NCBI RefSeq assembly: GCF_900105135.1
Contig: NZ_LT629741.1
Location: forward strand, 1,922,001 to 1,986,000
Source: Gramella sp. MAR_2010_147
Lineage (GTDB): Bacteria; Bacteroidota; Bacteroidia; Flavobacteriales; Flavobacteriaceae
DNA length: 64,000 nucleotides
Reading direction: 5' to 3'
The notes beneath the pieces were generated by a model that saw only the letters and a program-made list of their open reading frames with translations, had not been told where the DNA came from and did not search any database. A program made the translations under genes and the position numbers. Below, piece after piece: positions 47,843 through 64,000 of this stretch. How positions within the stretch are numbered: the stretch's first letter is position 1; every line of letters starts with the position of its first letter.

Positions 47843-49203
47843 GCAGAAACCTGACTCTTTCCCTTATAAAACTCATAGATCATAAAACCTATGAGAGCAA
47901 TATATTCTATAGCCACCAGCCACATATTCTCCTGATATTCTGGATTGGAATAAGCATAATAACTGAGCATTATCACTGCTGACCATATCAATATATATTT
48001 AAATTCGGTAAAAACGCTTAGAATCAACGGAATTGCCAAGTACCAGGGATGCACAGTGGTTGAAAGTAACAGATAAGCCGTTACCGCAAATAGCATGTTG
48101 GTTATAAGTTGTTTGGTGCTCTGAAATCTTCGGAAAAAGCTTAATCCAAGTATGACTATAATGCTAATAATGGGAAGTATTTTTCCAGCAGTTTCGATTA
48201 TATTATAACCTTTCACCTGGAAACCAATCCATCGCACGAGATAATAAATACTCGCATTAAATTCGAATTTCCCAAACCATAAACCTATACTGCCTAAGAA
48301 ATTAGAAACTACTTCAGCTGAATAGAACGGCAGAAAGGAAATGATTCCCGTAAGAATACAAACCAAATAGTATATAATTAGTTTTCTAAGGCCGAGTTGC
48401 TCTTTAGATCTATTGAAATATTTGAAGAGCAATGGCAAAAACAGCAATGGAAGTAATTTTACCGATATGGAAAGACCGAAAATAACAGCACTCCAAAACC
48501 ATTTTCGCTGATGTAACAAATACAATGACCAGATTAAAAAGAAAACCATGACAGACTCGAAATGGAGATTTCCAGTCATTTCAATTATAATAAATGGATT
48601 AAGAATATACCAGAAAATCTGATGTTCTGGCAATCCCATTGATTTCAATAATTTTCTTCCGAAGAATAACGTTCCAAGATCTGCCAAAATTATGATGATC
48701 CTGAAAATGATCACCGATCCCAGGATGCTTGAAGAAGAAATCCAGCCGGCAATGGTAAATATCAACTGGTTTAATGGAGGATAATTTGAAAAGTGGCCAG
48801 CGCTTAAATTCCCCATTCCCATAACTAATTCTTTAGACTGAGCAATGCTGAAGTTCTCAAGATTTATGAGCTTGTCTGGAATGTATTGATACGGATTCCA
48901 TCCTTCCGCCACCAGTCTCCCATCCCAGATAAACCTGAAATAATCCTGTGAAAGATTGGGCAGAGCAAACAGAAATATTAGCCGGAAAAGCACTGCAAAA
49001 CCTATTAAAAGTCGAAGATCTGCTTTTAGCATATTTACCAGCTTATAACTTAGAAAGCACAGCGCAGTATATAGTAAAATTAGTCTTGGAAAATCTGACC
49101 GCTCCAATCCATAACCAAAAGAAAAGTAAAATGCGAGACAGGAAAGCGCCAGTAGAACGGGAAACTTATAAAGTTTAAGAAATTTCAAATCCATGAAGGG
49201 CAA
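47839..49203 (-). CDS. GT-C type membrane glycosyltransferase (mannosyltransferase-like, GT87/DUF2029)
   Basis: 454 residues with about eleven helices. A loop after helix 2 has the Asp-rich GT-C pattern (LSQDYFRFIWDGRLVAEGWNP), and FSNYPPLNQLIFTIAGW is the matching PxxPP-like segment. These enzymes move a sugar from a polyprenyl-phosphate donor to an acceptor on the periplasmic side. It lies 26 bp after the cellulose-synthase-like GT2 gene and is last of three glycosyltransferase genes; a polyprenyl-phosphate sugar made by the first could be its donor (inference). Confidence 0.87.
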   Translation of the reverse strand: MPFMDLKFLKLYKFPVLLALSCLAFYFSFGYGLERSDFPRLILLYTALCFLSYKLVNMLKADLRLLIGFAVLFRLIFLFALPNLSQDYFRFIWDGRLVAEGWNPYQYIPDKLINLENFSIAQSKELVMGMGNLSAGHFSNYPPLNQLIFTIAGWISSSSILGSVIIFRIIIILADLGTLFFGRKLLKSMGLPEHQIFWYILNPFIIIEMTGNLHFESVMVFFLIWSLYLLHQRKWFWSAVIFGLSISVKLLPLLFLPLLFKYFNRSKEQLGLRKLIIYYLVCILTGIISFLPFYSAEVVSNFLGSIGLWFGKFEFNASIYYLVRWIGFQVKGYNIIETAGKILPIISIIVILGLSFFRRFQSTKQLITNMLFAVTAYLLLSTTVHPWYLAIPLILSVFTEFKYILIWSAVIMLSYYAYSNPEYQENMWLVAIEYIALIGFMIYEFYKGKSQVSA

Positions 49204-49229
49204 CAGGCTTTTGGCTAAAATATAAAAAT

Positions 49230-50696
49230 TTAAGCTCTTAGGCTTTTAAAGAATACAAAGCCAAAGCCAGTAAATAGCATTAGGTGAAAGATTAACAATC
49301 CAAAATCATTCAGTTTAAAAGCACTCCATATCGCAAAACCAAAATACAGGAACAGGAGTCCCTCAAGGATTACATTCTTAGAAAACCTATTGGTTAAATA
49401 AGTGTTTCCTTTCCAGGAATCTTTTATAGAATTAATATTGAACTTAGGGGTCCTGATGAATTCAGACCTTTTCCCAAAATGACCTTCCAGAACGGCCAGT
49501 GAGTTATGCACCGAAAAACCCATAGCAATAGAAAAGAAGGTAATGAACATTCCCACAAATTTGAAAAAACTCTTTATGCTTTTTCCGTGAATTTTCGCAT
49601 AGGCAACATAATAACAGGCAAAGAATATAAAGGTGCTAATGGCAAAACCCGCCATCACATTAAAATACCAGTGAAAGTTAGGGTTGCCATGTTTTATATA
49701 TAATACCGGTACGCTTAGCACTGCCAGTAACAGCACAATTAAAAACATACTGGAGTTCAACAAATGAAAAAAGCCATGAAACTTGGTACTAAAAGAAACC
49801 GATTTATCCCTTAATAATTTTCCGTAATTTTTTCTGAAATTTTCAGCGGCTCCTTTGTTCCATCTAAACTGCTGACTCCTTGCCGCGCTAATTACCACGG
49901 GAAGTTCTGCCGGAGTTTCCACATCCTCCAGATATTTGAATTCCCAGTTCTTCATCTGGGCACGATAGCTAAGATCAAGATCTTCCGTTAAAGTGTCACC
50001 ACTCCAATTCCCGGCGTCGAGAATACATTCTTTTCGCCAGATCCCCGCAGTACCGTTGAAATTAATGAAGTTCCTGCCAAAATTTCTACCGGTTTGTTCC
50101 AGTATAAAATGAAAATCAAGTGCAAAAGCCTGAATTTTTGTAAGCAGGGAATAATCTCTATTTAAATGTCCCCAACGGGTTTGCACCACTCCAATTTTAG
50201 GATTTTTAAAATATGGGAGCGTTTCCATAAGCCAGTTTTCACCCGGAACGAAGTCAGAATCAAAAACAGCTACAAACTCGCCTTTGGCTATTTTTAGCCC
50301 TTCTTTTAATGCGCCCGCTTTAAACCCGGTTCTGTTCTCCCTTCTTATATGCTGAATATCGAGTCCCGAATTTTGAAGCTCCAGAATGATTCCTGAAGTT
50401 TTCTCGATAGAATGATCTGTAGAATCGTCTAAAACCTGGATTTCCAGTTTATCCAGTGGATAGTTGATTTTCCCAATATTCTTCAATAATCGCTCTACAA
50501 CATAATATTCATTATAAAGTGGCAATTGAATAGTAACCATTGGCAATTCTTCTTCTGAAAAATCAAATTTCTCAGAATGATCGGTAGCTTTAGTCGACTT
50601 AAGGTAATTGATTAGTAAATGAAGCTGGGAAAGGCTATAGATAAAGATAACGAGCAGTGCCAGAGTATAAATTAGAATTACCGCAAAATCGATCAT
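49230..50696 (-). CDS. Processive-type membrane GT2 glycosyltransferase (cellulose/glucomannan synthase-like)
   Basis: 488 residues. An N-terminal helix is followed by the GT-A domain with LPLYNEYYVVERLL, DDSTD, VFDSDF (DxD), TEDLDL (catalytic base region) and QFRWNKGAAENFRKN (QxxRW), and then four C-terminal helices. This full D,D,D,QxxRW set marks a synthase that extrudes a beta-glycan or glycosylates a lipid at the membrane; it resembles CslA-type mannan/glucomannan synthases. Starts 4 bp inside the end of the upstream GT2 gene. Confidence 0.9.
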   Translation of the reverse strand: MIDFAVILIYTLALLVIFIYSLSQLHLLINYLKSTKATDHSEKFDFSEEELPMVTIQLPLYNEYYVVERLLKNIGKINYPLDKLEIQVLDDSTDHSIEKTSGIILELQNSGLDIQHIRRENRTGFKAGALKEGLKIAKGEFVAVFDSDFVPGENWLMETLPYFKNPKIGVVQTRWGHLNRDYSLLTKIQAFALDFHFILEQTGRNFGRNFINFNGTAGIWRKECILDAGNWSGDTLTEDLDLSYRAQMKNWEFKYLEDVETPAELPVVISAARSQQFRWNKGAAENFRKNYGKLLRDKSVSFSTKFHGFFHLLNSSMFLIVLLLAVLSVPVLYIKHGNPNFHWYFNVMAGFAISTFIFFACYYVAYAKIHGKSIKSFFKFVGMFITFFSIAMGFSVHNSLAVLEGHFGKRSEFIRTPKFNINSIKDSWKGNTYLTNRFSKNVILEGLLFLYFGFAIWSAFKLNDFGLLIFHLMLFTGFGFVFFKSLRA

Positions 50697-51397
50697 TTAA
50701 AACTATATTTAAAAATCCAACCTAGAATCTTTACGCCTGCAAAGATAGCACCTTTGATGGTTCCTGAAACTTTAGACACGCCAATCCTGTTCCTGTAATG
50801 AACCGGGACTTCTGCATAACTTAGTTTTTGTCGTAAAGCTTTGAGTTGCATTTCAACCGTCCATCCATAAGTTTTGTCTTCCATATTAAGCTGAAGCAGT
50901 TTTTCATACTTAATTGCCCTGAATGGGCCAAGATCTGTAAACCTGGATTTGAAGAGCAATTTCATTAAGGTGGTAGCCAGTTTGTTTCCAAATAGCTGCG
51001 GGAATGTCATGGAACCTTTTTCTCTCCATTTACCTACTCTAGCTCCAACTACAAAATCTTTATCATCTTCTAATATGGGCTGAATAATTTTGTTCAACTC
51101 ATTCGGGTAATCACTATAATCACCATCCAGAAATACGATAATATCAGTTTTTTGGTTTTGCCTGGAAATATAATCCATTCCTTTTAAGCAGGCATATCCA
51201 TAACCTTTTCTTGATTCTGAAAGCACTGTAGCTCCGGCCTTTTCAGCATTAACTCCAGTATCATCGGTAGAATTATTGCTCACAACAATTACTTCTTCTA
51301 CAATATCTGGAATTTCAGAAATAACATGCGAAATAGATTCAGCTTCGTTAAATGCTGGAATAATAACCTTAATAACTGGGGGCACTGCGGTATGCAA
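50693..51397 (-). CDS. GT2 glycosyltransferase, dolichol/undecaprenyl-phosphate sugar synthase-like
   Basis: 234 residues, soluble or peripheral. VIIPAFNEAESISHVI at the start, NNSTDDTG, the DxD motif in FLDGDYSDYP, GARVGKWREKGSM and the C-terminal TYGWTVEMQLKALRQ, YAEVPVHYRNRIGVSKVSG are those of DPM1/Alg5-like enzymes, which load a sugar on a polyprenyl phosphate. It is 47 bp downstream of the FeS-protein gene on the same strand and overlaps the next GT2 gene by 4 bp. Confidence 0.9.
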   Translation of the reverse strand: MHTAVPPVIKVIIPAFNEAESISHVISEIPDIVEEVIVVSNNSTDDTGVNAEKAGATVLSESRKGYGYACLKGMDYISRQNQKTDIIVFLDGDYSDYPNELNKIIQPILEDDKDFVVGARVGKWREKGSMTFPQLFGNKLATTLMKLLFKSRFTDLGPFRAIKYEKLLQLNMEDKTYGWTVEMQLKALRQKLSYAEVPVHYRNRIGVSKVSGTIKGAIFAGVKILGWIFKYSFK

Positions 51398-51444
51398 ATT
51401 CAGAATTTATTAGGGAGTGTGTAAATAAACTTAATCCTTACAGA

Positions 51445-53040
51445 TTATTTGGTCTTTTGGTTGATAAGGTCCAAAAGATCCACATTGTCACCTAAAATTC
51501 CATCTTCAGAACTAATTCTGTTATCCCTTGATCCGTTTTCGAGTTTTAAAACTCCTCTAGGGCAAACCGCTGAACAAATTCCGCAACCTACACAACTTGA
51601 TCTTACGATATTCTCTCCCTTCTGCGCATACGCCCTGACATCTATTCCCATTTCACAATAAGTAGAACAATTTCCACAGGAAATACATTGACCTCCATTT
51701 GTTGTAATTCTGAATTTTGAGAACAATCTCTGTTGCATTCCCAGAATTGCCGCCATTGGGCAACCAAACCTACACCATACTCTGTTACCGAAAATTGGGT
51801 AAAAACCGGTTCCTATCACTCCGCTAAATATTGCCCCTATAAGAAATCCGTAGGATGCTCTTAAACTTTCAGCATTAAAGAGGAATAAATTTGTTCCGCT
51901 AAAATAGTGGAAACCTATCAGGGCAAGGATAATTACCAGATAACCTATCGCTCCATACCTGGCGTCTTTTTCAAGTTCTTCTCTTTTAAAATACCATATC
52001 CCGGCAAATAGTAAGGTTAGAAAAATCCCAACTCCAATTAGAAAGACATCTCTTGTTAACCAGTATTTCGAAGCATCTTCACCTAAATAAGAATAGATAA
52101 CCGCTGTGGTCATTAAGACTACAAAAACCAGTACACTATGCACAACCCATCTTTCTACTTTCCAGGCAAACTGACTTTTATCTGATAAATGTCTATAAGG
52201 ATCCCCGGCTGTTTCGGCTAATCCACCACAACCACAAACCCAGCTACAGTACCAGCGTTTTCCATATTTATAAGTTAAAATTGGAGTGATGATAAAGATA
52301 GAAACTATTCCGAAGAGCAATAAAGCAATGCCAATAGTTCCGGCAGAAATAAAATCGTCTACCCTATATTGTTCAAAATTATAATAATTGAGCGGCCAGA
52401 TATTCTTAAGGTCATAATAGGGCAGGGAAAAGCCTTTTCCGTTTAACCTGGCCATAAATTCAGGAATTAGGAAGGCAAAAGATGTCTGGAAAAACATCAC
52501 TGAAAAGGTTCTGAGCCTTTCATAGCGATTATGCCGGTATTTATAGAGAAATTTTACACCAAATGCGGTAATTGCAATGGTATATAAAGTTCCATAAACA
52601 AACCACTGACTGGCTGGATTACCGCTTAATAATTTACTTAAAGGATCAAATAAGGCAATTAAACCTACATTATCACCTTCGGCACGCAGCCCTATAAACT
52701 GCGGATAGAAGTAAAGAACAACATAAAACCCTGTAAGGGATATACCGGCAAGCCAGGCCAGGTAACCTCTATTTGTCATCGATTTAAACCAGACACCATC
52801 GTTCTTAATACCAGGATGTTTACCTGTATATGCCGCCTTCGCAAACCATACGATCCCGGCAAAAATCGAAATTAATGAGATACTTAACCACAATGTTTTA
52901 TTCGGGAAATTTAAATTAAAACTTGCTAGCAAAAGAATTATAAGGCCCGACATTCCTAAAAAAGTGGCTAGTTTTTGTTGTGTATTAATAGATGCCGGGG
53001 CATCTCCGGTAAGCGCCATATTATGTTCTATTCTGCTCAT
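51445..53040 (-). CDS. Polytopic membrane ferredoxin-like protein with four Cys clusters (NapH/NosR-like)
   Basis: 531 residues, about ten or eleven helices. Two membrane-border Cys groups (CSWVCGCGG and CRFGCPMAA) are typical of NapH/NosR/RdxA-type electron-transfer proteins, and the C-terminal domain carries two 4Fe-4S binding motifs (CISCGNCSTYC and CVGCGICSAVCP). It probably passes electrons between the membrane pool and a cytosolic or periplasmic enzyme. Its start codon overlaps the stop codon of the flavoprotein gene (TAATG), so the two very likely work together. Not a radical-SAM protein: no CxxxCxxC with phi-C. Confidence 0.87.
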   Translation of the reverse strand: MSRIEHNMALTGDAPASINTQQKLATFLGMSGLIILLLASFNLNFPNKTLWLSISLISIFAGIVWFAKAAYTGKHPGIKNDGVWFKSMTNRGYLAWLAGISLTGFYVVLYFYPQFIGLRAEGDNVGLIALFDPLSKLLSGNPASQWFVYGTLYTIAITAFGVKFLYKYRHNRYERLRTFSVMFFQTSFAFLIPEFMARLNGKGFSLPYYDLKNIWPLNYYNFEQYRVDDFISAGTIGIALLLFGIVSIFIITPILTYKYGKRWYCSWVCGCGGLAETAGDPYRHLSDKSQFAWKVERWVVHSVLVFVVLMTTAVIYSYLGEDASKYWLTRDVFLIGVGIFLTLLFAGIWYFKREELEKDARYGAIGYLVIILALIGFHYFSGTNLFLFNAESLRASYGFLIGAIFSGVIGTGFYPIFGNRVWCRFGCPMAAILGMQQRLFSKFRITTNGGQCISCGNCSTYCEMGIDVRAYAQKGENIVRSSCVGCGICSAVCPRGVLKLENGSRDNRISSEDGILGDNVDLLDLINQKTK

Positions 53041-54329
53041 TACTTAGTTTCTTGTAGATTATTTTTAAAACTTTCAAAAATTTCCTTTTCGTGGGAATCG
53101 TAAAATTCAGGATCAAAATTGGCGAGTTTCAAATTTGCCAGAACATGGTCTATTTTTCGATTCTCATTTAACCATAAGTCAAAAATTTCCTGTCTCATTC
53201 GAATTCCGAAAGTATTTATACCCAAAAACTCATTGGTCTCAGTATTGTATGAGATCGTGATTGCCTTTAGATCTGTTTCATGCCTCCAGTGAAAATGTTG
53301 CTCGTTTTCTTTAGGTTTAGCCCAAACCCAACCATAAGTTTGATATTCTATATCAAAGAATTTCGCCGAATTAAACCAATTCCCGGGTTGATACGCAGTT
53401 CGATCTCCTGTTAAAGTCTTTGCAAGCGTCTCACCCATGATCCTTCCTGTATACCACACCGCCTCAACAGGTTTTCTTAAACCGATGGCAGTTCTTTGTT
53501 GCGCACAGTCTCCAATAGCATATACCTCAGGGATATTAGTCTCTAAAAATTCGTTGACCAAAATGCCCTTATCGGTTTCAAGATCAGAATCTTTCAGGAA
53601 ATCTATATTAGGCCTTACTCCTGCACAAAGTCCCACCAATTGGCATTCTATCTCTTCTCCGCCTTTAGTTCTTACCGCTTTTACCCTTCCATCTTCATCT
53701 GGAATTATTTTTTCCAGCTCTGTATGGTGTCTAAGATCTACACCATGGGAAGAAATATGTTCCGAGATCATTTTAGCTTCCGGCAACGGTAATACATTAC
53801 TCCAAAATGCCTCTTCCCGCACCAGGAACGTCACCTCTATATTTCGTGTTCTAAGCATTTCAGCCAGCTCTACCCCAATCAAACCACCACCAATGATCAC
53901 TGCTTTTTTTGTGAAAGCAGTATTCTCTTCAAGCTCAATAAGATCCTGTTTAGTAACCAGGCCCTGAACTCCGTCCAGCTCTTCTCCTTCCCAACCAAAT
54001 TTATTATAAATAGAACCTGTTGCGATCACCAACTTATCATACCCCAGAGGCTCACCAGATGAAAAACGAAGTTTCTTTTTATCAAAATCGATCTGCTCTA
54101 CCCAGGCTTTTTTTAATTCTATCCTGTTCTTTTCCCAAAACCAGTTCTCATAAGGTTGTAAATGATCCCATTTCATGTGCCCCATATACACATACATTAG
54201 TGCAGTACGGGAAAAAAAATAGTCAGATTCGCCTGAAATCACAGTGATCCTGTGATCGGAAAGTTTCCGGATGTGCCTTGCCGCAGTAATCCCCGAAATT
54301 CCGTTTCCAATTATAACAATATGCTCCAT
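53040..54329 (-). CDS. NAD(P)H/FAD-dependent oxidoreductase (rubredoxin/nitrite reductase-like)
   Basis: 429 residues from ATG 54329; a longer reading to 54530 would overlap the divergent gene and adds only a hydrophobic stretch. FAD motif IVIIGNGISGITAARHI at the very start, NAD motif AVIIGGGLIGVELAEML (~145), and the C-terminal FAD site VYAIGDCAQ. This is the class-I pyridine-nucleotide disulfide-type fold without redox cysteines, as in NADH:rubredoxin or nitrite-reductase flavin subunits. Translationally coupled to the downstream FeS membrane protein, forming a probable electron-transfer pair. Confidence 0.88.
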   Translation of the reverse strand: MEHIVIIGNGISGITAARHIRKLSDHRITVISGESDYFFSRTALMYVYMGHMKWDHLQPYENWFWEKNRIELKKAWVEQIDFDKKKLRFSSGEPLGYDKLVIATGSIYNKFGWEGEELDGVQGLVTKQDLIELEENTAFTKKAVIIGGGLIGVELAEMLRTRNIEVTFLVREEAFWSNVLPLPEAKMISEHISSHGVDLRHHTELEKIIPDEDGRVKAVRTKGGEEIECQLVGLCAGVRPNIDFLKDSDLETDKGILVNEFLETNIPEVYAIGDCAQQRTAIGLRKPVEAVWYTGRIMGETLAKTLTGDRTAYQPGNWFNSAKFFDIEYQTYGWVWAKPKENEQHFHWRHETDLKAITISYNTETNEFLGINTFGIRMRQEIFDLWLNENRKIDHVLANLKLANFDPEFYDSHEKEIFESFKNNLQETK

Positions 54330-54429
54330 TAATTTATTTAATTTGGCTGAAGGCCGGACAGCACTTAAGTAAAGAACGCTGAAAATAGCCAGAATCCCAA
54401 TTATATCAAGGATTTTATGCCTCAAACAA

Positions 54430-55461
54430 ATGTCTAGCAATTCAAGATTACCATACGCAACAATGATCATTTTAACGATCACGTTCCTGATGTTGTCGTG
54501 CCAGGCAGAGATTCCTTCCAGGAAAATCAACGGAATAAGTCTCGTAGCATCCAGAGACAGTCTAAATCCAGCTCAAATAAACCAACTTACCAGGGTTAAT
54601 GCTAACGCTATTGCTCTAATGCCGTATGCGTTTATGGGCAATAAAAAAGAGCCGGAACTCATTTATAATATCGAAAGACAATGGTTTGGAGAAAGAGCAG
54701 AGGGCATAGAACAGGCTATTTTACTTTTAAAGGAACAGGATTTGAGAATCATGATGAAGCCCCATATCTGGTTGAGAAATGGAGATTTTACCGGTGATCT
54801 TCAATTTTCTACAGAAGCTGAATGGGAAAGATTTGAGACGTCCTATAAAAAATACATTATGCTCTATGCAAAAATCTCAGAAAAGCATCATATTGAGATT
54901 CTATGTATTGGAACGGAATTATACCATTTTGTAAGTTCCAGGCCTGAATTCTGGAAAGAACTTATTAGTGATATACGAAAGATTTACAAAGGGAAACTGG
55001 TATACGCAGAGAACTGGGATAAAGTAGATCTGGTAAATATATGGGATGATCTGGATTTCATTGGAGTTGATGCCTATTTTCCTTTAAGCGAAAAGGTTTC
55101 TCCTTCTGAAGATGAAATCAGAAATGGATGGCAGAAGCATAAAAGTATGCTTAAAAGTCTTTCTTCTAAACATGAAAAACCGATACTTTTTACAGAATAC
55201 GGATACAGAAATATAGACTATGCGTTAAAAGAACCCTGGAATTCGAATAGAGATATTTCAGGAACAAATCATGGTTTACAAGCGAGAGCCCTGCAAGTTT
55301 TATATGAAGAATTTTGGACTCAAAGCTGGTTTGCCGGCGGTTATATTTGGAAATGGCACCAACATGAGGATTCTGGCGGATTAGAAAATGATCGTTTTAC
55401 TCCTCAAAATAAACCTGCTGAAAATATAGTAAAAGAATACTATCAAAAATTCAGGAACTAA
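54430..55461 (+). CDS. GH113-like glycoside hydrolase lipoprotein
   Basis: 343 residues. Lipobox LMLSC (Cys24) shows lipid anchoring. The rest is a TIM barrel like GH113 beta-mannanases: GISLVASRDSLNPAQ, IMMKPHIWLRNGDF, acid/base Glu163 in CIGTELYHF, FIGVDAYFP, and nucleophile Glu256 in LFTEYGYR, with WFAGGYIWKWH near the end. It would cleave beta-mannosidic or related links in the envelope. It is divergent from the flavoprotein/FeS/GT genes, and its 3' end overlaps the TIGR04283 transferase by 11 bp. Confidence 0.87.
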   Translation: MSSNSRLPYATMIILTITFLMLSCQAEIPSRKINGISLVASRDSLNPAQINQLTRVNANAIALMPYAFMGNKKEPELIYNIERQWFGERAEGIEQAILLLKEQDLRIMMKPHIWLRNGDFTGDLQFSTEAEWERFETSYKKYIMLYAKISEKHHIEILCIGTELYHFVSSRPEFWKELISDIRKIYKGKLVYAENWDKVDLVNIWDDLDFIGVDAYFPLSEKVSPSEDEIRNGWQKHKSMLKSLSSKHEKPILFTEYGYRNIDYALKEPWNSNRDISGTNHGLQARALQVLYEEFWTQSWFAGGYIWKWHQHEDSGGLENDRFTPQNKPAENIVKEYYQKFRN

Positions 55462-56137
55462 GCCTTTTGTAGTAGTGGCTGTAGAGTTCTTCAGGTGAAG
55501 CTCCACGTCTCCTTTTCCAGTAAATCTCAATAAAAAGCCACTGTGTATTCCAAACTCCCATTGTTTCGTAGAGTCTTGCAGAGGTTGTTATCCAACTTTT
55601 AATAACCGTAAACTGTTTCTTTTTATAAAGTCTTCTAATAATTTCATTGTCTTCATAAACCTTATAAGATTCATTAAATCCACCAATTTCATTAAAAAGG
55701 CATTTTTCAACAAACAGGGATTGATCACCCCCTCTGCAGGTAATATGATTCACTTTCGTAAACTGTCCCATTAAATTAAGCCACCAGTGATTTTTATCAA
55801 ATTTCATTTGAAAACAGCCCGCCTTCTTCCCTTTTCTCAATTCATTTACAATTAGCGAATCAAAATTTTGTGGCGGTAAGCTATCGGCATGTAAAAAATA
55901 AAGAATATCGGCTTTAGCGTTCCGGGCTCCGGTGTTCATTTGAACAGCCCTGCCTTTTGCTGAAGACACATATTTAGCATTGCTGGATTTTTGTACAATT
56001 TCAGCAGTTCCATCGGTACTTCCGCCGTCCACGATCAATATTTCAGTCACATACCCTGAAGAAGTTGCTTCCAGGTGTCTTAGCAGGCCTGGAAGCTGTT
56101 GTTCTTCATTATATGCCGGAATAATAATACTGATCAT
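55451..56137 (-). CDS. TIGR04283-type GT2 glycosyltransferase (arsenosugar-associated)
   Basis: 228 residues. The GT2 fold begins ISIIIPAYNEEQQLPGLL with VDGGSTDGT and LHADSLPP; the family-specific VNHITCRGGDQSLFV and the FNESYKVYEDNEIIRRLYKK segment are present. TIGR04283 transferases sit with TIGR04282 transferases, ArsM and radical-SAM ArsS in arsenosugar loci. It is the last gene of the arsenosugar-type run, 6 bp after DUF547, and may add the glycerol- or sugar-like aglycone to the ribofuranoside (inference). Confidence 0.9.
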   Translation of the reverse strand: MISIIIPAYNEEQQLPGLLRHLEATSSGYVTEILIVDGGSTDGTAEIVQKSSNAKYVSSAKGRAVQMNTGARNAKADILYFLHADSLPPQNFDSLIVNELRKGKKAGCFQMKFDKNHWWLNLMGQFTKVNHITCRGGDQSLFVEKCLFNEIGGFNESYKVYEDNEIIRRLYKKKQFTVIKSWITTSARLYETMGVWNTQWLFIEIYWKRRRGASPEELYSHYYKRLSS

Positions 56138-56143
56138 TAACGA

Positions 56144-56935
56144 TTATTTAGCCTCGTTCAGGTCCCAGTTGTAATCTTTATACGTGATAGAGGTTCCTGA
56201 ACTTATCTTTGTATTTGAATACTGGTTTACATAATCTATTACGGTTCCATTTTCTTTAAAATCTTTTTTATACCAGTCGAAAATTGAAGATAATTTAGCT
56301 GAATTTTTTGAGATCTCATTTTTATCAGAATTGATAAATTCTTTGGTTACTCTTTCTAATTGTTCCTCAATCTTATTTGCAGTATAAGCTTCATTCAGAA
56401 GTTTTGGGCACGAGATAGAGGCGCAATTGATCGCAAAATGAATACGAGGTTCGTTCATTTTTCTTAGCACGCTGTTTTCAATGCCTCCAAGAGAAATTTC
56501 AGTATCGCCTACTTTCACGAATTCGCTAGTCCAGGGACTATCTATATCTTTAATGCTCTTTACCGGATAATTTCTTAGAATAAGATCTACCGTATAAGCA
56601 TTGTAAAGATTGATGTAGTAAGCAAGTAATTCATTTGCTCCCCAGTCATTCGTAGGTTCTTGTGCAGACAACATTTTTAAATATTTGTCCAGTTTTTCAC
56701 GGTCATTCTTAAAACCTTTATAATCCACCATTCCGCTTGCACTTACGTGTTTTTGAAGCAAATCATCCCATATCTTGTGATCCATAACTTGATCCACATC
56801 AGATGAAGTTTGTTCAGAAGCATCCGGGGTTGGCAAACCTTTACTGTTCAGGCCCGCGCTGGAAATAAGATTACAGGAAGCAAACATACATGCTCCTGAT
56901 ATTAGAATTGCAAAACTTAAAAATAACTTTTTCAT
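56144..56935 (-). CDS. DUF547 lipoprotein
   Basis: 263 residues. Lipobox FASC (Cys21) gives lipid anchoring. The DUF547 core has WDDLLQKHVSASGMVDYKGF, LLAYYINLYNAYTV, FAINCASISCPKL (His-less papain-like relatives share the Cys region) and IFDWYKKDF. DUF547 proteins resemble cysteine-peptidase/transglutaminase folds; their role is unknown, but they recur in arsenosugar loci. Located 16 bp after arsM and 6 bp before the TIGR04283 gene, it is part of this operon. Confidence 0.9.
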   Translation of the reverse strand: MKKLFLSFAILISGACMFASCNLISSAGLNSKGLPTPDASEQTSSDVDQVMDHKIWDDLLQKHVSASGMVDYKGFKNDREKLDKYLKMLSAQEPTNDWGANELLAYYINLYNAYTVDLILRNYPVKSIKDIDSPWTSEFVKVGDTEISLGGIENSVLRKMNEPRIHFAINCASISCPKLLNEAYTANKIEEQLERVTKEFINSDKNEISKNSAKLSSIFDWYKKDFKENGTVIDYVNQYSNTKISSGTSITYKDYNWDLNEAK

Positions 56936-56951
56936 AGTTTAAATTTTAAAA

Positions 56952-57920
56952 TTAACAGCAGCCACCACCATCATAATGAAAAGTAGACTCACTGATATAA
57001 ATATCATCACGACCTAAAACTGCCAATGCATTTGCGGTCTTATCACAAATTGCCAGTGGTTGATTTTTTAATAGAATATGCCCTTTTTTATCATCAAAAT
57101 GATCTCCTTCCCCATAATAAATGGCCGCCTTTCCTGTAAAAATACAGGGGCCATCCTCTGGCATAGGGTCTTTGATTGCCGCAACTTCTATAGATTCTAT
57201 ATATACGAGTTCATCGGTTGGATAGTTTTTTGGATCCAAGATTCTGTATGGTTTTCTTGCCCTAATTTCAATAGTACCAAAACCTGCGTCGGTTAACGCC
57301 TTTACATAATCTTTAATAGAAAGGCTTCCACTTAGGCATAGTGCACGTAGTCTTTCGTCATTTCTCAATTCTTCATTCATCTCCTGCTCACAGGTAGGAT
57401 CACTCATCACAAGCTTCCCGTGAGGTTTTAAAACACGATACATTTCCTTTAAAGCCTTTGTTAATTCTTCGGTTTTGAAGATATTAAAAAGACAATTTTG
57501 GGCTGCCACATCAATAGAATTGTCTTCCACAGGAAGTTCTGTCGCATCTCCTTTTTTAAGATCAACAAATTCAGATTTGAACCAAGGGTTCAATTCCTCT
57601 GCTTCTTTAAAATTCTTCCTGGAAGCTTCCAGCATTTCATCTACTACATCTATCCCTACAACCCCTGATTTTTGTCTGGAGAAATAAGCGAATTGAAGTA
57701 ATTCCATTCCTCCACCTACACCTACATAGAGAATTCGGGGATCGTTAGTGAGATCTCTTGCATGCACGGTAGTCCCACAGCCATAGTTCATCTCCTGCAT
57801 GATCTTAGGAATCTTTAAGCCCGGTAATTCCCAAATAGGATTGGTAGTACAGCATAATCCAACATCTGGAGTTAATGCCGCGTCTCTGTATACATCTTTA
57901 GTAGTTTCTAAATAGCTCAT
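56952..57920 (-). CDS. arsM: Arsenite methyltransferase ArsM (arsenosugar type)
   Basis: 322 residues from ATG 57920, one base after the PNP stop; a longer start at 58016 would lie inside pnp and is rejected. SAM motif I is ILYVGVGGGMELLQ (63-76). Thiolate candidates are the pair Cys23-Cys24 (VGLCCTTNP), Cys48 (NYGCGTTV), CGTT-adjacent residues and the C-terminal pair in HYDGGGCC (321-322). The GLCCTTNPIWELPGL and GGGCC features are those I associate with ArsM of arsenosugar loci. It would methylate As(III), using SAM, to mono- and dimethylarsenic, the substrate for arsenosugar building. Confidence 0.92.
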   Translation of the reverse strand: MSYLETTKDVYRDAALTPDVGLCCTTNPIWELPGLKIPKIMQEMNYGCGTTVHARDLTNDPRILYVGVGGGMELLQFAYFSRQKSGVVGIDVVDEMLEASRKNFKEAEELNPWFKSEFVDLKKGDATELPVEDNSIDVAAQNCLFNIFKTEELTKALKEMYRVLKPHGKLVMSDPTCEQEMNEELRNDERLRALCLSGSLSIKDYVKALTDAGFGTIEIRARKPYRILDPKNYPTDELVYIESIEVAAIKDPMPEDGPCIFTGKAAIYYGEGDHFDDKKGHILLKNQPLAICDKTANALAVLGRDDIYISESTFHYDGGGCC

Positions 57921-57921
57921 G

Positions 57922-58734
57922 TTATATTTTCTGAAGTAATTCTTTAAATAGTTTAACCATATCTGGCTCTGCCCTGGCGGCGTTGGCGAGTATATTCTGA
58001 ATATCCACTTTTTCAAGATTATCGGGATCTCCCTGATCGGTGATCACTGAAATTGCAGAAACCGGGATTCCCAAATGATTCGCCACAATAATTTCCGGCA
58101 CCGTACTCATTCCTACCGCGTCTGCACCGATAATTTTCAAATATCGATATTCTGCCCTGGTTTCAAGTTGCGGTCCAACAACCGAAGCGTATACTCCCTT
58201 ATGTAAGGTGATATTCTGGTTTTTGGCAGATTCTTCAAAAATTTGGTTCATGGTAGCATCATAAGGCTGGCTCATGTCTACAAATCGTTCACCTAATTTT
58301 TCTACTCCATGAAATGCCAATGGTGATCCTCCCTGCAGGTTAATATGATCATCGATCAGCATTAATTCACCTTCTTTAAAATCAAGATTAATGGCTCCGG
58401 ATGCATTTGAAACCAGTAATTTCTGCATCCCCAGACGCTTCATTACTCTTACAGGATAAGTTACATCAAAAAGACTATAGCCCTCATAAAGATGAAATCT
58501 TCCCTGCATTACTACCACTTTTTTCCCCTGGAGTGTTCCAAAGATGAGTTTTCCTTTATGGAATTCTACCGTTGCGGTTGGAAAGTAAGGGATATGGTTG
58601 TAACTGGCTTCTACCTCAACCTCTACATCGCCAATAAGTTTTCCCAGGCCTGTTCCCAGGATGATACCAACTTCAGGCTCTCCAAAGCCTTTAGATTTTA
58701 AATAATCTACAGATTCGTTTATTCTATCTGTCAT
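57922..58734 (-). CDS. Purine nucleoside phosphorylase
   Basis: 270 residues, the usual trimeric PNP length. Motifs: GIILGTGLGKLIGDV (phosphate loop), MQGRFHLYEGYSLFDV, SNASGAINLDFKEGELMLI, GVYASVVGPQLETRAEYR and MSTVPEIIVANHLGI, with a C-terminal VITDQGDPDNLEKV base-binding region. It releases the base from nucleosides by phosphorolysis. Between tigr04282 and arsM (overlap of 4 bp and gap of 1 bp), it probably removes adenine from an arsenic-bearing 5'-deoxyadenosine, which is inference; general purine salvage is the alternative. Confidence 0.93.
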   Translation of the reverse strand: MTDRINESVDYLKSKGFGEPEVGIILGTGLGKLIGDVEVEVEASYNHIPYFPTATVEFHKGKLIFGTLQGKKVVVMQGRFHLYEGYSLFDVTYPVRVMKRLGMQKLLVSNASGAINLDFKEGELMLIDDHINLQGGSPLAFHGVEKLGERFVDMSQPYDATMNQIFEESAKNQNITLHKGVYASVVGPQLETRAEYRYLKIIGADAVGMSTVPEIIVANHLGIPVSAISVITDQGDPDNLEKVDIQNILANAARAEPDMVKLFKELLQKI

Positions 58735-59348
58735 ATTGTTATATATTTTTGAAATGCAGGATGGTCTTTTATATCATCCAATAGATCTACATCGTTGCGG
58801 GTTTCCAGTAATTTGACGTCTTTGTTCTTAAGATCTTGCAGAGTATCCTGTAATACACTGGAAGTTCCCCACTCTTTATTTTTGAATACATCAGAATTTA
58901 AGGATTTCATACCGAATAGATAATACCCGCCATCCTCGGCAGGGCCAATCACATACTCATGATTTTCCAAATCCTGAAAAGCATTTTCAATATCAGTAGA
59001 ATCGATATCATACATATCGGTTCCTATGATAATTATTTTTTTATAATTCTCTTCAAATCCATTTTGAAAAGCATTCTGCATGCGTTCCCCAAGATCTTCC
59101 CCTAATTGCTTCTTTTTAGAATAAAGTTCGTTATTCCAAATATCGTCCTTATTAACGGAATCGGAATAATAGACCTGTTTCGTTGCATTTACGGCAGCAG
59201 TAAATTTTGCTGAATGATTCAGTAAAAATTTATAGATTTCGAGTGCTTTCTCATTCCCAAGGTCTTTTGCCAGTCTGGTCTTTACCTTTCCAGCAACGGG
59301 ATTTTTAGTAAATATGAGAAGTAATTTATCTTTTATAGTTTCAGTCAC
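58731..59348 (-). CDS. TIGR04282-type transferase (arsenosugar-associated, nucleotidyltransferase-like fold)
   Basis: 205 residues. N-terminal LIFTKNPVAGKVKTRLAKDL, the acidic IGTDMYDIDSTDIENAF, and GPAEDGGYYLFGMK, followed by WGTSSVLQDTL, are the TIGR04282 signature (rSAM/selenodomain-associated transferase 1). The fold is like MobA/GT-A enzymes that bind a nucleotide-activated substrate. It follows the rhodanese gene with no gap and overlaps pnp by 4 bp. Its likely role is activation or transfer on the arseno-ribose after adenine removal. Confidence 0.92.
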   Translation of the reverse strand: MTETIKDKLLLIFTKNPVAGKVKTRLAKDLGNEKALEIYKFLLNHSAKFTAAVNATKQVYYSDSVNKDDIWNNELYSKKKQLGEDLGERMQNAFQNGFEENYKKIIIIGTDMYDIDSTDIENAFQDLENHEYVIGPAEDGGYYLFGMKSLNSDVFKNKEWGTSSVLQDTLQDLKNKDVKLLETRNDVDLLDDIKDHPAFQKYITI

Positions 59349-59849
59349 TTAATATATTTTTTCGCCTTTTTCCAGGTATTTCGCCCAATTTCTGGAGAAC
59401 GTATGTACTTTATTGGTCTCTTTTCCATTAGAGAATACCTCAAAACCTGTATTTTTCCATGCAAAGATTCCCCCATATAAATTTGAAACATTCGTATAAC
59501 CGGCTTTTTGAAGCTTATTGCCAATATTTTCTGAACGAATTCCAATAGAGCAATATACCACGATAGGAGCAGATTTGTCTTTAAACTTCTGTGAAAATTG
59601 GTCTTCTGAAAAATTAGAATAGCCTACAAATATTGCTTCAGGGAGATGACTCACATCATATTCTATTTTTTCTCTTGCATCTAAAATAACAACAGAATCT
59701 TTTAAACGATTCATCTTCAACTCTTCCACAGATATATATGGAACATCCGTTTTATTATATTTAGATAATAATTTATCTAAAGGCTCGTTCTGTCCTGAGA
59801 CAATTGAGCATCCAAAAATTATCAATATTAAACTTAGTAGGTTTTTCAA
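59349..59849 (-). CDS. Exported rhodanese-like protein
   Basis: 166 residues. A hydrophobic signal segment (LLSLILIIFGCSIVSGQ) shows export; IFGC is a poor lipobox, so a soluble or lipidated form is possible. The rhodanese domain has VVILDAREKIEYDVSHLPEA and the active-site loop VVYCSIGIRSENIG with Cys100, then VSNLYGGIFAWKNTG. Active-site Cys plus an Arg at the loop end suggests sulfur transfer or arsenate-reductase-like chemistry (rhodaneses and Cdc25/Acr2 arsenate reductases share the fold). Directly precedes the TIGR04282 gene. Confidence 0.88.
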   Translation of the reverse strand: MKNLLSLILIIFGCSIVSGQNEPLDKLLSKYNKTDVPYISVEELKMNRLKDSVVILDAREKIEYDVSHLPEAIFVGYSNFSEDQFSQKFKDKSAPIVVYCSIGIRSENIGNKLQKAGYTNVSNLYGGIFAWKNTGFEVFSNGKETNKVHTFSRNWAKYLEKGEKIY

Positions 59850-59903
59850 TGTGATTCTTTCTTCTATTTACGAAATTAATGGAACACGAGATGTTATCGT
59901 TTT

Positions 59904-60728
59904 CTAAAGATTTATACCAAATCCCTGTAAACCGCTTTCCAGACCCGGTAAAATTTCGGTGTTATCCCAAATTCCTGTAATTAACGTACGAGCATATTCT
60001 TGCGGCAAATGGTTCTTCATCATAAGTGAACTTGCCAGTTGATGATCATATTTTAAGGAATGATGCTTAAAAGTAATTTCCTTTTCTGAATCCAGGATCG
60101 CATACCAGGTTTTAGGAGAACCATCATTTGCGGGCATCCCAATTACCCCGGGATTTATCCAAAGTTTTTCTTCTTCTGAATCTGAGAAAGGCAACCCACA
60201 ATGTCCTGCAATAATAACGTCAGTTTCGGTTTCGATGAAATTGCGCTTTTTAACTGACCAATCAGTCGACTTAAAAATAAATTCTGAAACATGAAATGCA
60301 GAACCGTGAACTACCTGAACTTTCTTTCCGGCATAATTAAATCTAATATGCAAGGGCAATTCTTTCATCCAGTCTATGGAATCCTGTGAAAGATGAATCT
60401 TCGCATAAGGGTACCATTGCTTTGAAAAATCATCACAGCGGGAGCCTTCACGAAAGTCGCACCCACAATCTGCCTTGTCTTCAGCCAGCTGAATTTCCAC
60501 ATTCCCCGCAATGCTATGAGCACCCCATTCTCTGAAAGCCTGCACCGTTTCTTCCGGTTGCGCACAGTAGCCAACAATATCTCCTGTACAAATACAATTT
60601 TCAGGAGGAATTCCTAAAGATTCTGCTTTTAAAATGAGTTCCTGTAAAGCCTGCAAATTGCTATAGACACCACCAAAAACAAGAACCTTCCCTTTAATTT
60701 TATTTAGATCGATTACTTTTTTAGCCAT
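59904..60728 (-). CDS. Metallophosphoesterase-like protein with altered first metal motif
   Basis: 274 residues from ATG 60728. Later phosphoesterase motifs are kept (CICTGDIVGYCAQPEETV, VVHGSAFHVSE, IIAGHCGLPF, WINPGVIGMP), but the first motif, normally D-x-H, reads VFGGVYSNLQALQ, so the Asp and His that bind metal are Gly and Tyr, and the GNHD motif is GNVE. It may have lost or changed its hydrolytic activity. A cluster of Cys (DKADCGCDFREGSRC) is also unusual. It starts 16 bp inside the end of the SSS symporter gene. Confidence 0.85.
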   Translation of the reverse strand: MAKKVIDLNKIKGKVLVFGGVYSNLQALQELILKAESLGIPPENCICTGDIVGYCAQPEETVQAFREWGAHSIAGNVEIQLAEDKADCGCDFREGSRCDDFSKQWYPYAKIHLSQDSIDWMKELPLHIRFNYAGKKVQVVHGSAFHVSEFIFKSTDWSVKKRNFIETETDVIIAGHCGLPFSDSEEEKLWINPGVIGMPANDGSPKTWYAILDSEKEITFKHHSLKYDHQLASSLMMKNHLPQEYARTLITGIWDNTEILPGLESGLQGFGINL

Positions 60729-62065
60729 TTCGGGATCAAATATAGGATTAAACAACTAAGAATTCCCCATATATTAATCCACAGTAGATCAGCATATGGA
60801 CCTTCCGTAAAAATTAAAGATTGAGGGAAAATATCAAAAACTAGCAAAAACCCGAAAACGAGTCCGCAAAACACGCTAAGATAAAAACTGATCTTAGGCA
60901 CCTTCATTTTCCAAAATATAAAAATAGGAGTTAAGCCAATTACCATGGTTCCTGAAATTGTTGTTGCTGAAAGAATTTCAGCATTTAGAAAAACTGGAAT
61001 AGTCCCCAGAATAGCTACTATAATCATGGCTACTCTACCCGATCTTATCGTTTTTCCAAACTTTAGATCTAGTGTTAACAATTTTGAAGAAGATGAAAAA
61101 GTAGAATCCAGGGTAGATGCGGCAGAAGTGATCATGATAAAATTGATCACCAACAAAATAACAACTCCAAATGATTTTCCAACCTCTACCGCCGCCTGGC
61201 CTTCCATTCCATTTTTTTGAGCATATATCCCAATGATGCTGAAAAAAATAATACAAATTCCGCCAAATATACTGGCAAGTATAAAACTTCGAAGGGTCGT
61301 TTTGGGTTTACTAATAAAACCTCTATCAGTTAGTACAGGGTCATGAAACGGGTAACTAAAAGACTGTAAAACCGCTGCAAAGAGTAAATTCATCCCAGTA
61401 GCCATGGTCCAGTTACCAGAGTTTACAACTTCTTTCACTTCCATCTCTCCAATGTTGAAAATATTCCACAAAATCACACATAATAAGATGGAAAATAAAC
61501 CCATTTGGATAACATCGGTAAAAATGGAACTACTTAACCCTCCTTTTAAGGCATAAGCCAGTGTTAATAATGTGAACACCAGAATAGACCAGTAAAAGGA
61601 AGATGAACCAATTTCTCCAAAATAGCTTCCAATTACCATGGTATTAGACCAAACCTCATTAAAAAGCCGAATACTGATAAGAATCGAGAAAATAATAATC
61701 GCTCCTCTTCCAAACTTTTCGATAAGAAACTGGTGAATGCTTTTGAAACCTCCTTTTACCCGCATTAAATAAATAATGATCCCGGCGACCGCAAAAGAAA
61801 GATAATATCCTGCATAGGCGACTCCGCCTACAATCCCAAAATCAAGCCCAAGATTTGCAGCATTGGTAATGCTTTTCGCAAAAATCCAGGAAATTATAAG
61901 GCTGCCTGTAAGCATGCCTGCACTTGGAGCTTTATTCCGAAAGGTGGCTTTGAAAAACTGTGCTTTCGTCTTTGCCCACGGAGACAATATTAAAAATGCC
62001 AAACTGGATATTACAAGCAATCCCCATTGCCAATAAACCGGTTCTATTTTAGAAAAATCAATCAA
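60713..62065 (-). CDS. Sodium:solute symporter (SSS) family permease
   Basis: 450 residues, about 12-13 helices. Matches to the SSS family: SAGMLTGSLIISWIFAKSI, VSGGVAYAGYYLSFAV-like helix 2 region, YALKGGLSSSIFTDVIQMG (the Gly-rich helix 5 region typical of this family) and ITSAASTLDSTFSSSSKLL, the Ser/Thr Na-site helix. It would import a small anionic or neutral solute with Na+. It follows SusD by 21 bp and overlaps the phosphoesterase gene by 16 bp, so it probably brings the SusCD cargo across the inner membrane. Confidence 0.88.
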   Translation of the reverse strand: MIDFSKIEPVYWQWGLLVISSLAFLILSPWAKTKAQFFKATFRNKAPSAGMLTGSLIISWIFAKSITNAANLGLDFGIVGGVAYAGYYLSFAVAGIIIYLMRVKGGFKSIHQFLIEKFGRGAIIIFSILISIRLFNEVWSNTMVIGSYFGEIGSSSFYWSILVFTLLTLAYALKGGLSSSIFTDVIQMGLFSILLCVILWNIFNIGEMEVKEVVNSGNWTMATGMNLLFAAVLQSFSYPFHDPVLTDRGFISKPKTTLRSFILASIFGGICIIFFSIIGIYAQKNGMEGQAAVEVGKSFGVVILLVINFIMITSAASTLDSTFSSSSKLLTLDLKFGKTIRSGRVAMIIVAILGTIPVFLNAEILSATTISGTMVIGLTPIFIFWKMKVPKISFYLSVFCGLVFGFLLVFDIFPQSLIFTEGPYADLLWINIWGILSCLILYLIPKWLKK

Positions 62066-62086
62066 TTAATTCATTTTTATATTTAT

Positions 62087-63526
62087 TCATTCATCCCACC
62101 ATACCGGGAAATTGATACTATTTCCATTAGTAGCAGCGGCCGTTGCTTCATAATTTTCAGCATTTAGTGCCGCTTCCTCTGTAGGATATGGCATTCTAAC
62201 AGGAATCATGTCATTATTCAGACTTGCCGATATAGGTTTTAAATCTGGATACCCGGTTCTTCTCCATTCTATCCATCCTTCATACCCATTGATCATATTC
62301 CCAATCCATTTTTGAGTAATTATTTGTTCTAAATTATTTCCAGTTGTGCCATAAGCTGCAGTTCCGTTTAAATAATCTTCGGGAAAAGGAGTGTTCCAGT
62401 AATCAAAACTTTGTTCTACAGCTGTATTATAAAGCATTTCAGGATCTGCCGAGATCATTCCTCTTTCAGCTGCTTCTGCCAGCCAGAAATTGGTTTCCCA
62501 TGCGGTAAGAAAATTGGCATCTAAAACACCCGTATTTTCTCTAAAAATCATTCCTGCATACGAATAATTTGCAGGAGAAATAGAGGTTTGAGAAGCATCA
62601 ATTCCATTTATCAGCCCATTATATTGTGTCGCATCATTTGCCGTTGGCCTGAATAAAACCTCTATTCTGGGATCATTCAATTCTGAAAGTATTTCTTCTA
62701 TCGTTTCAGACATGACGAAATTATTAAAATCTCCAACTCTTAATTGTTGCATTCTAAAGCTATTTGGTTCTCCTGAAGTAAAGTTGAAGACTGCATTTTG
62801 AGCGTTTGTTTCTATATAATTTACTTCAGAATAAAGCTGTTGTAATTCGGCTGAAACATTTACCCGGGCAGAAATTCGCATCAAATATTTAATCTTTAGA
62901 GAATTTGCAAAACGAACCCAATTATCCAGATCCCCTTCAAAAAGTATGTCTCCTTCCAACGAAAAATTGCCATTATACGCTTCTATTGCTGAGATTCCAT
63001 TATCCAGATTATCTAAAATTCCTCCTTCAGACATATAAATATCTTCCTGGGAATCGTAAACCGGTGTCGTAGTCACTTCTTTCCCCTGAAAAGCCTGAGC
63101 ATAAGGAACATCGCCAAAAAGATCGGTTAAAGTGGCAGCCATATAGGCTTTTAGAATCAATGCCGGACCTTCATAAACACGAAAAGCTTCATTTTCCCTT
63201 GATTTATTCAGGATAATTTGATTGTCGCGAAGATTGGTATACAGAACTGGCCAGGGATTTCCTCCTAGTTGGGGAGACTTCAATGCATGGCGGTCAAAAA
63301 GGTTAAAATCTAATGCGGTTAAATACTGTCCCAGCAAATTACCGGCAACAAAACCCTCATAAGACATCTGCTCTCCATAATCGTAGATTACCTGCCTTAG
63401 TAACAAACTGGGCTGAACTTCTACCGGGGCATTGGGATTTGTATTCTTTTCCTTAAAATCCTGGGTACAGGAAAGCATGGCGAAAATTGCCAAAATCAAA
63501 CCAGCAATATTTTTATACTTTTTCAT
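62087..63526 (-). CDS. SusD/RagB family nutrient-binding lipoprotein
   Basis: 479 residues. Lipobox MLSC with the anchoring Cys near residue 20. The SusD-like_2 form: NTNPNAPVEVQPSLLLRQV, YGEQMSYEGFVAGNLLGQYL, LRDNQIILNKSRENEAFRVY, AYMAATLTDLFGDVPYAQAF, and the C-terminal MIPVRMPYPTEEAALN, VRMPYP being typical. It is the surface lid that captures substrate for the TonB-dependent channel SusC encoded just upstream (stop 63620). The set continues into a sodium symporter gene and the arsenosugar run. Confidence 0.93.
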   Translation of the reverse strand: MKKYKNIAGLILAIFAMLSCTQDFKEKNTNPNAPVEVQPSLLLRQVIYDYGEQMSYEGFVAGNLLGQYLTALDFNLFDRHALKSPQLGGNPWPVLYTNLRDNQIILNKSRENEAFRVYEGPALILKAYMAATLTDLFGDVPYAQAFQGKEVTTTPVYDSQEDIYMSEGGILDNLDNGISAIEAYNGNFSLEGDILFEGDLDNWVRFANSLKIKYLMRISARVNVSAELQQLYSEVNYIETNAQNAVFNFTSGEPNSFRMQQLRVGDFNNFVMSETIEEILSELNDPRIEVLFRPTANDATQYNGLINGIDASQTSISPANYSYAGMIFRENTGVLDANFLTAWETNFWLAEAAERGMISADPEMLYNTAVEQSFDYWNTPFPEDYLNGTAAYGTTGNNLEQIITQKWIGNMINGYEGWIEWRRTGYPDLKPISASLNNDMIPVRMPYPTEEAALNAENYEATAAATNGNSINFPVWWDE

Positions 63527-63546
63527 CTTTTAATATTTTATAATTA

Positions 63547-63588
63547 CGTCATTATGAACTTGAGAAATGAAACAAGTCCAACTTGACG
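63547..63588. repeat. Short inverted repeat related to the paired-hairpin element
   Basis: Between the SusC and SusD genes. It starts CGTCA and ends TGACG; its left arm resembles CGTCAAGCTGAACTTG from the repeats at 10318 and 10458, and the reverse complement of its right arm (CGTCAAGTTGGACTTG) resembles the same sequence, so two half-copies face each other. Confidence 0.45.
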
Positions 63589-63619
63589 AATTCTTTAGTT
63601 TATAAACGGCCATTATAGC

Positions 63620-64000
63620 CTAAAAATTAATCCCGGCTTTAAACCCAATACTTCTGGTAGTCGCATAAGACATATCTTCAACCCCGCTAATAAAACCCTG
63701 ACCCTGTACGGCAAGCTGTTCAGGATCAAAATGCGGAATTTCACTCAGGGCAAATAAATTTCTGCCTATTAGCGAAAGATTTACCGTACCCCCCTGCTTC
63801 ATAAACCCAAGAAAATCATTCTTAAGATCAAAAGTATATCCAAGAGAAAACTGCCTTAATTTCAAATAAGAAGCGTCATAGATATTATTTTCTTCGTGAT
63901 TACGATCATAGAACTGACGATAGTATGATTCTGCCCAAACTGCGGTTGTATTTTGTACATACTCAGGATTTTCTTCAGTCCCAACATTCACTACACCTTC
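63620..64000 (-). CDS. SusC/RagA TonB-dependent transporter, C-terminal part (5' end outside window)
   Basis: The reading frame is open to the window edge at 64000, and only the last ~126 residues are seen. They form the final barrel strands: YDASYLKLRQFSLGYTFDL, VNLSLIGRNLFALSE, IPHFDPEQLAVQG and the end SIGFKAGINF, with a terminal Phe as in outer-membrane barrels. NLFALSEIPHFDPE is typical of SusC-like proteins. It pairs with the adjacent SusD gene (93-bp gap) for TonB-driven uptake; the plug domain and N-terminus cannot be judged. Confidence 0.9.
   Translation of the reverse strand, partial: EGVVNVGTEENPEYVQNTTAVWAESYYRQFYDRNHEENNIYDASYLKLRQFSLGYTFDLKNDFLGFMKQGGTVNLSLIGRNLFALSEIPHFDPEQLAVQGQGFISGVEDMSYATTRSIGFKAGINF

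Follow-up and report, generated by a model that had tools for sequence, protein, structure and literature searches.

A window of 64,000 nucleotides from Gramella sp. MAR_2010_147 (contig NZ_LT629741.1, positions 1,922,001 to 1,986,000; the genome is a single contig of 3.16 Mb) contains, at 55451..64000 of its minus strand, a run of genes in which a SusC/SusD outer membrane pair and a sodium:solute symporter-type protein (SSS) stand next to genes of arsenosugar biosynthesis. All ten open reading frames (ORFs) from SusC to the TIGR04283 transferase are present, and their families were assigned by profile scans of the window proteins (Table 1). Computed with the likeliest start codons, the SSS gene and that of the calcineurin-fold protein MPE overlap by 16 bp, and the genes of TIGR04282 and the purine-nucleoside phosphorylase (PNP) by 4 bp. 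The gaps amount to 0 bp (rhodanese/TIGR04282), 1 bp (PNP/ArsM), 21 bp (SusD/SSS), and 93 bp (SusC/SusD). The ArsM start codon was placed so as to agree with profile position 1 and with the spacing of 1 bp to PNP. A sequence-only reading of the window had described ten co-directional genes with mostly tiny gaps or overlaps; its ORFs and its gap figures were reproduced, and the profile matches back its assignments of ArsM, PNP, the transferases, rhodanese, DUF547, phosphoesterase, and SusD. The same gene order recurs in other genera, and the co-direction of the run is therefore beyond chance.

Table 1. Genes of the run in the window and their profile matches.
Feature	Coordinates	Strand	Profile match
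SusC/RagA TonB-linked outer membrane protein, C-terminal part	63620..64000	-	TIGR04056 43 bits, under whole-protein cut-off; C-terminal part scanned
SusD-like lipoprotein, 479 aa	62087..63526	-	SusD-like_2; PF12771 314 bits, PF12741 201 bits, over cut-off
Sodium:solute symporter-type membrane protein (SSS), 450 aa	60713..62065	-	TIGR00813 29 bits, below cut-off
MPE, calcineurin-fold protein, metal site lost in part, three invariant cysteines	59904..60728	-	PF12850 (Metallophos_2) 41 bits
Rhodanese-domain protein	59349..59849	-	NF045521 207 bits
TIGR04282 arsenosugar-associated transferase	58731..59348	-	TIGR04282 217 bits, over cut-off
Purine-nucleoside phosphorylase (PNP)	57922..58734	-	NF006054 336 bits
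ArsM arsenite methyltransferase, arsenosugar type	56952..57920	-	NF038099 571.5 bits, cut-off 400
DUF547 lipoprotein	56144..56935	-	PF04784 92 bits
TIGR04283 arsenosugar-associated glycosyltransferase	55451..56137	-	TIGR04283 248 bits, over cut-off

SusC is truncated by the end of the window. In extended coordinates the whole gene occupies 63620..66835 (a frame of 1071 amino acids), and the run continues rightward on the same strand (locus L002) with the rest of SusC, DUF2064b, ArsS, and an AhpD-like gene; an AraC-type gene is divergent from this extended cluster. DUF2064b is a second DUF2064 protein, which the TIGR04282 model matches with 109 bits, under the cut-off of 134. The radical SAM enzyme ArsS (TIGR04167, 441 bits, cut-off 300) and the AhpD-like, arsenosugar peroxidase-like protein (TIGR04169, 200 bits, over cut-off) are both encoded outside the window. 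SusCD is located inside the arsenosugar set, with ArsS on one side and the rhodanese gene on the other. What the sequence-only reading saw was an arsenosugar set without the radical SAM enzyme, which stands across SusCD beyond the window. All five genes of the arsenosugar cluster as defined by NCBIfam (ArsM, ArsS, TIGR04169, TIGR04282, TIGR04283) are over their cut-offs. Judged by these profiles, the locus is an arsenosugar biosynthesis cluster carrying a putative uptake module; it shares the five genes with the known cluster and differs from it by the inserted outer- and inner-membrane genes.

A simple polysaccharide locus was considered and rejected: the SusC/SusD pair is present, but none of the 13 genes of the run encodes a glycan-degrading enzyme, and the opposite strand carries the GH113 gene (54430-55461). 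As in other SusCD nutrient systems, the pair would serve a specific nutrient; unlike in those systems, polysaccharide enzymes are missing and the partner is the arsenosugar pathway. Five terminator-like sites were found on the minus strand between 55300 and 64000. All of them are inside genes, and a terminator splitting SusD from SSS, which the earlier reading had named as a sign of separate units, is not among them. One sigma-70-like site (63580-63551) falls within the SusC/SusD gap; such sites are not enriched over shuffles (21 found versus 28.9 expected). A scan for Bacteroidetes-type promoters gave no useful promoter and must be regarded as insensitive, because nothing was found upstream of the AhpD-like gene either.

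The accessory module consists of DUF2064b-SusC-SusD-SSS-MPE. In a first survey, 59 genomes were searched for the arsenosugar-type arsM, which was over the cut-off in 32, the window genome included. The arsM neighbourhoods of the other 31 genomes were compared. The usual order of the core is AhpD-ArsS-rhodanese-TIGR04282-PNP-ArsM-DUF547-TIGR04283. DUF2064b-SusC-SusD occurs in four of the 31 neighbourhoods, three times between ArsS and the rhodanese gene and once (G033) after ArsM, where SSS and MPE follow. SSS-MPE alone is present in G025, and no module was seen in the 26 others, some of which are short contigs. Within the genus of the window genome, 3 of 24 genomes (two of the 24 being less than 75% complete) possess a SusD ortholog. 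SusD identity is at least 65% in G000, G006, G009, G033, and G035, and at most 42% elsewhere among the 59 genomes.

A symporter scan of named genomes yielded 346 SSS relatives, the best 80 of which constitute the named loci. MPE is found in all 80, SusC, SusD, and ArsS in 76 each, and DUF2064b in 72; SusC, SusD, and ArsS occur together in 72. Three of the loci that lack ArsS (L067, L071, L111) end at contig ends, and the fourth is L124 from Aquimarina algiphila. Outside the family, SusC-SusD-SSS-MPE was detected in 3 of 296 genomes sampled from the phylum (G462, G561, G572), with identities of 51-61%. ArsS is part of the locus in two of these three genomes; in the remaining one the locus is on a 17-kb contig. 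The comparison of gene order in other Flavobacteriaceae, which had been proposed along with the sequence-only reading, shows that the module recurs beside arsenosugar genes in other genera.

In order to survey the family, 298 Flavobacteriaceae genomes with a completeness floor of 95% were used. ArsS is present in 239, the arsenosugar-type ArsM in 189 (all with ArsS), SSS in 48, and SusD in 44. All 44 genomes with a SusD ortholog carry ArsS and SSS, and SusD was found in none of the 59 ArsS-negative genomes. The start of SusD is at most 2.1 kb from SSS in each of the 44 genomes, and the start of SSS is at most 7.1 kb from ArsS in all 19 of the 48 SSS genomes having an ArsS position among the matches listed. 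The unusual coupling of SusCD and symporter to arsenosugar genes that the earlier reading had pointed out is thus borne out. The three radical-SAM cysteines and five C-terminal cysteines of ArsS are conserved in 76 of 76 ArsS frames from the named loci. In the ten named loci from Maribacter the module adjoins ArsS and the other core genes are not in view; likewise, ArsS stays the neighbour of the module in G561 and G572, with the rest of the core not in view.

The relation of the module to ArsM is inverse. The canonical ArsM (NF008823, cut-off 263) was sought in the 50 ArsS genomes without arsenosugar-type ArsM (NF038099), and not in the other 189. Among these 50 it is over the cut-off in 14 of 24 SSS-negative genomes versus 1 of 26 SSS-positive ones; the single exception, G146, is without SusD, and none of the 25 SusD-positive genomes of this group has it. 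Clusters with the module depart from the known arsenosugar cluster in a second respect, in that 25 of 44 SusD genomes have no ArsM over the cut-off. SusD is present in 25 of 35 ArsS genomes without either ArsM over cut-off versus 19 of 204 with one (Fisher 2e-14). After collapsing to genera, the corresponding numbers are 17 of 25 versus 17 of 148 (Fisher 7e-9; both p values ignore phylogeny beyond the genus). Two ArsS genomes were compared in each of 82 genera. In six genera the pair differs in both traits, each time in opposite direction, so that module and ArsM are swapped. In four genera the difference concerns ArsM only and neither genome has the module; in one genus ArsM differs while the module is constant. 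ArsS, rhodanese, TIGR04282, and PNP are all found in the locus of 32 of 45 module genomes without ArsM, and ten of the other 13 are Maribacter loci. In the named set, arsM is absent from the locus in 53 of 80 cases. Some of these 53 are draft or metagenome-assembled genomes.

Three other accounts of the missing ArsM were tried and rejected. For a substitute methyltransferase at the position of ArsM, the recurrent ORF found there, of which one example was scanned, is a member of PF04116, a family of fatty acid hydroxylases. For an ArsM located merely elsewhere in the genome, genome-wide searches found the arsenosugar type elsewhere in three of the 53 named genomes, and no arsM at E<=1e-15 in 47. 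For a physical displacement of ArsM by the module, G000, G006, G009, and G035 have the module between ArsS and rhodanese with ArsM still in place. Separately, Flavivirga jejuensis (L074) has an intact arsM together with another copy that is broken, as would be expected if surplus copies of ArsM decay where the module is present.

With the module, ArsM is often missing and ArsS, in the family sample, never, and the cysteines of ArsS are kept. It is therefore plausible that an imported compound would enter the pathway after ArsM and before ArsS. We put forward, at even confidence, that the module imports a dimethylated arsenical, namely dimethylarsinate (DMA) or a compound releasing it. Passage of the scarce organoarsenical through the outer membrane would be the task of SusC and SusD, its sodium-coupled transport through the inner membrane that of SSS, and its handling in the cytoplasm that of MPE. 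Import would in this way supply dimethylated arsenic, which ArsM produces and ArsS uses; the ArsS substrate we take to be dimethylarsinous acid. ArsS would then adenosylate the arsenic, and PNP would lead on to the arsenosugar together with the two transferases. The setting of a Roseomonas MPE homolog and the response of phnD to DMA in Pelagibacter, both described below, speak for such an import. We infer the transport direction, the substrate, and the role of MPE, the direction being based on what is known of the protein families. PMC12159101 states that in the biosynthesis of oxo-arsenosugars arsenic is adenosylated by a radical SAM enzyme.

Several observations weigh against the import of a dimethylated arsenical. 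ArsM is retained in 19 of 44 SusD genomes, among them the window genome, and the module is therefore not simply a replacement for ArsM. In ten ArsS genomes both ArsM and the module are absent; rhodanese and TIGR04283 were not seen in any of the seven stretches examined from these ten, one of which (from G290) is at a contig start. In five of the 82 genera the two genomes differ in the module but agree in ArsM. The scoring of ArsM has its own uncertainties: two SusD-positive genomes scored as ArsM-less (G168, G318) match the canonical ArsM at 66-71 bits, well below the cut-off of 263; three of the 53 named genomes (SSS genomes, two with SusD) have ArsM-like matches of 95-98 bits that resemble the canonical ArsM (compare G030); outside the family, G462 and G572 have ArsM-like matches of 116 and 91 bits, and only G561 has none. 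An unrelated arsenic methyltransferase could moreover escape the searches. SSS relatives occur without ArsS in G239 and, as a homolog of 45% identity, among unrelated genes in Marinobacter. Finally, DMA is small for a SusCD system, although the NanOU sialic acid system reportedly makes a small solute possible. The inverse relation might also be a by-product of lineage history, the module being old in the family and ArsM having been lost for other reasons. That lineages share both traits, that the tests are blind to deeper phylogeny, and that module and ArsM coexist in 19 genomes would agree with such a history; the within-genus contrasts, which go the same way in six of six cases, and the persistence of the association after genus collapse make us regard it as very improbable.

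The module might instead import intact algal arsenosugars or their glycerophospho forms, which the cluster would remodel. The module is physically close to the arsenosugar genes, SusCD systems usually take larger molecules, and many hosts belong, by name, to marine genera. Such an import would leave no need for ArsS. All 44 SusD genomes nevertheless contain it, its cysteines are kept in the 76 named frames, and where the core is reduced it is ArsS that the module stays beside; in addition, MPE is without a normal phosphoesterase site. Because it is ArsM that 25 of the 44 module genomes lack, with ArsS kept, the substrate is likely to precede ArsS and not to be a finished arsenosugar, and we consider the import of intact arsenosugars unlikely. 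Of the interpretation offered by the sequence-only reading, the link between SusCD, symporter, and arsenosugar genes stands, whereas the suggested substrates (algal arsenosugar, nucleoside, phosphate) fit less well.

The fold of MPE is supported by a match to PF12850 over cut-off, by a match to PDB entry 3rqz (E 7.9e-13), and by an AlphaFold model with a pLDDT of 86.6. Complete calcineurin-like phosphoesterases display the motifs DxH, GD, GNH, H, and GHxH. In an alignment of 95 sequences (93 loci, the window, and Roseomonas), the first motif is GxY, with Asp replaced by Gly and His by Tyr, and GHxH ends in Gly instead of His, both in 95 of 95; GNH reads GNV in 94 sequences and GNC in one. The alignment conserves Asp59, Asn85, His150, and His185 and shows no variation at Cys97, Cys99, or Cys107; Cys186 is found in 88 of the 95 sequences. 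By these residues, MPE has lost part of the metal and catalytic site of a phosphoesterase, and its three invariant thiols would suit a trivalent arsenical. The symporter is probably a distant SSS member: it reaches 29 bits against the TIGR00813 cut-off of 184, has no Pfam match at 0.001, and among solved structures matches, at E<=0.1, only that of the choline transporter SLC5A7 (E 1.9e-5).

The replaced residues also bear on the possibility that the module scavenges phosphorus and is placed here because arsenate enters when phosphate is scarce. MPE does have a phosphoesterase fold, its Roseomonas homolog is encoded beside PhnCDE-type genes, and SusCD phosphate utilisation systems (PusCD) are said to exist in Bacteroidetes. 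PusCD resembles the present module in that SusCD is beside a phosphoesterase-fold gene; it differs by the degraded phosphoesterase site and the arsenic partner genes found here. As a need for phosphate would, moreover, leave the inverse relation to ArsM unexplained, we deem phosphorus scavenging quite improbable. For the same lack of part of the catalytic site, the phosphate-bearing substrate of the earlier reading finds little support.

The MPE homolog on plasmid p546-1 of Roseomonas haemaphysalidis (L190) is 42% identical and is encoded last in an operon for a PhnCDE-type ABC transporter, which adjoins genes for two radical SAM proteins, TIGR04282, and DUF547. By TIGR04167, which has a cut-off of 300, the radical SAM proteins are not ArsS, the better one reaching 61 bits; ArsM is not among the annotated products of the 33 kb of this locus. 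Two unrelated transporter types are thus found beside an MPE of this kind, and the Roseomonas operon may represent a second type of organoarsenic or phosphonate system.

Extending the import of a dimethylated arsenical, we tentatively suggest, with considerable doubt, that arsenic methylation has been abandoned in many marine Flavobacteriaceae. These would depend on the methylated arsenic that phytoplankton release and scavenge it with a dedicated system of SusCD and symporter, and MPE, a thiolate protein with the fold of a phosphoesterase, would pass the arsenic to ArsS. The module would then, to our knowledge, be the first transport system devoted to methylated arsenic. A limited literature search found no paper tying SusCD to arsenosugar genes. 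According to PMC6426599, phytoplankton-made DMA accumulates in water, and Pelagibacter, assayed with 14C-DMA, increased phnD about two-fold on DMA. Pelagibacter is likewise a marine heterotroph metabolising DMA, with PhnD proposed in uptake; it demethylates DMA, whereas here DMA would feed ArsS (PMC6426599). If the suggestion is true, it is a case of arsenic metabolism shared between species, and it bears on the source of arsenic for arsenosugars in heterotrophic marine bacteria and on phytoplankton methylated arsenic as a resource. Since the module tracks ArsS and is commonest where ArsM is missing, the question is testable in named strains of Polaribacter, Winogradskyella, Maribacter, and Christiangramia.

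With respect to the history of the module, the ArsS tree groups the window genome and Christiangramia forsetii with the module-free G011 (support 94/88). The rhodanese gene, a neighbour of the module, rejects this grouping in the approximately unbiased test (p-AU 0.008; the groups were named after the first tree had been seen). A single clade of the three module-bearing Christiangramia is rejected by neither gene (p-AU 0.27 and 0.29) and shown by neither. The conflict between the two trees hints at a possible exchange of the module together with a neighbouring gene.

Three further sets of genes were noted around the cluster. The PF04116 protein is encoded between PNP and DUF547 in 42 of the 80 named loci (e.g. 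L167:12592-13485) and may act on an arsenolipid. On the minus strand of the window, 47839-54530 contains genes for a GT87-like, two GT2, a NapH-like Fe-S, and an FAD oxidoreductase protein; part or the whole of this set follows the cluster in many relatives, and it may belong to the same pathway. A DASS-type sodium/anion symporter is encoded at L002:6691-8256 and is found near the cluster in several Christiangramia genomes.

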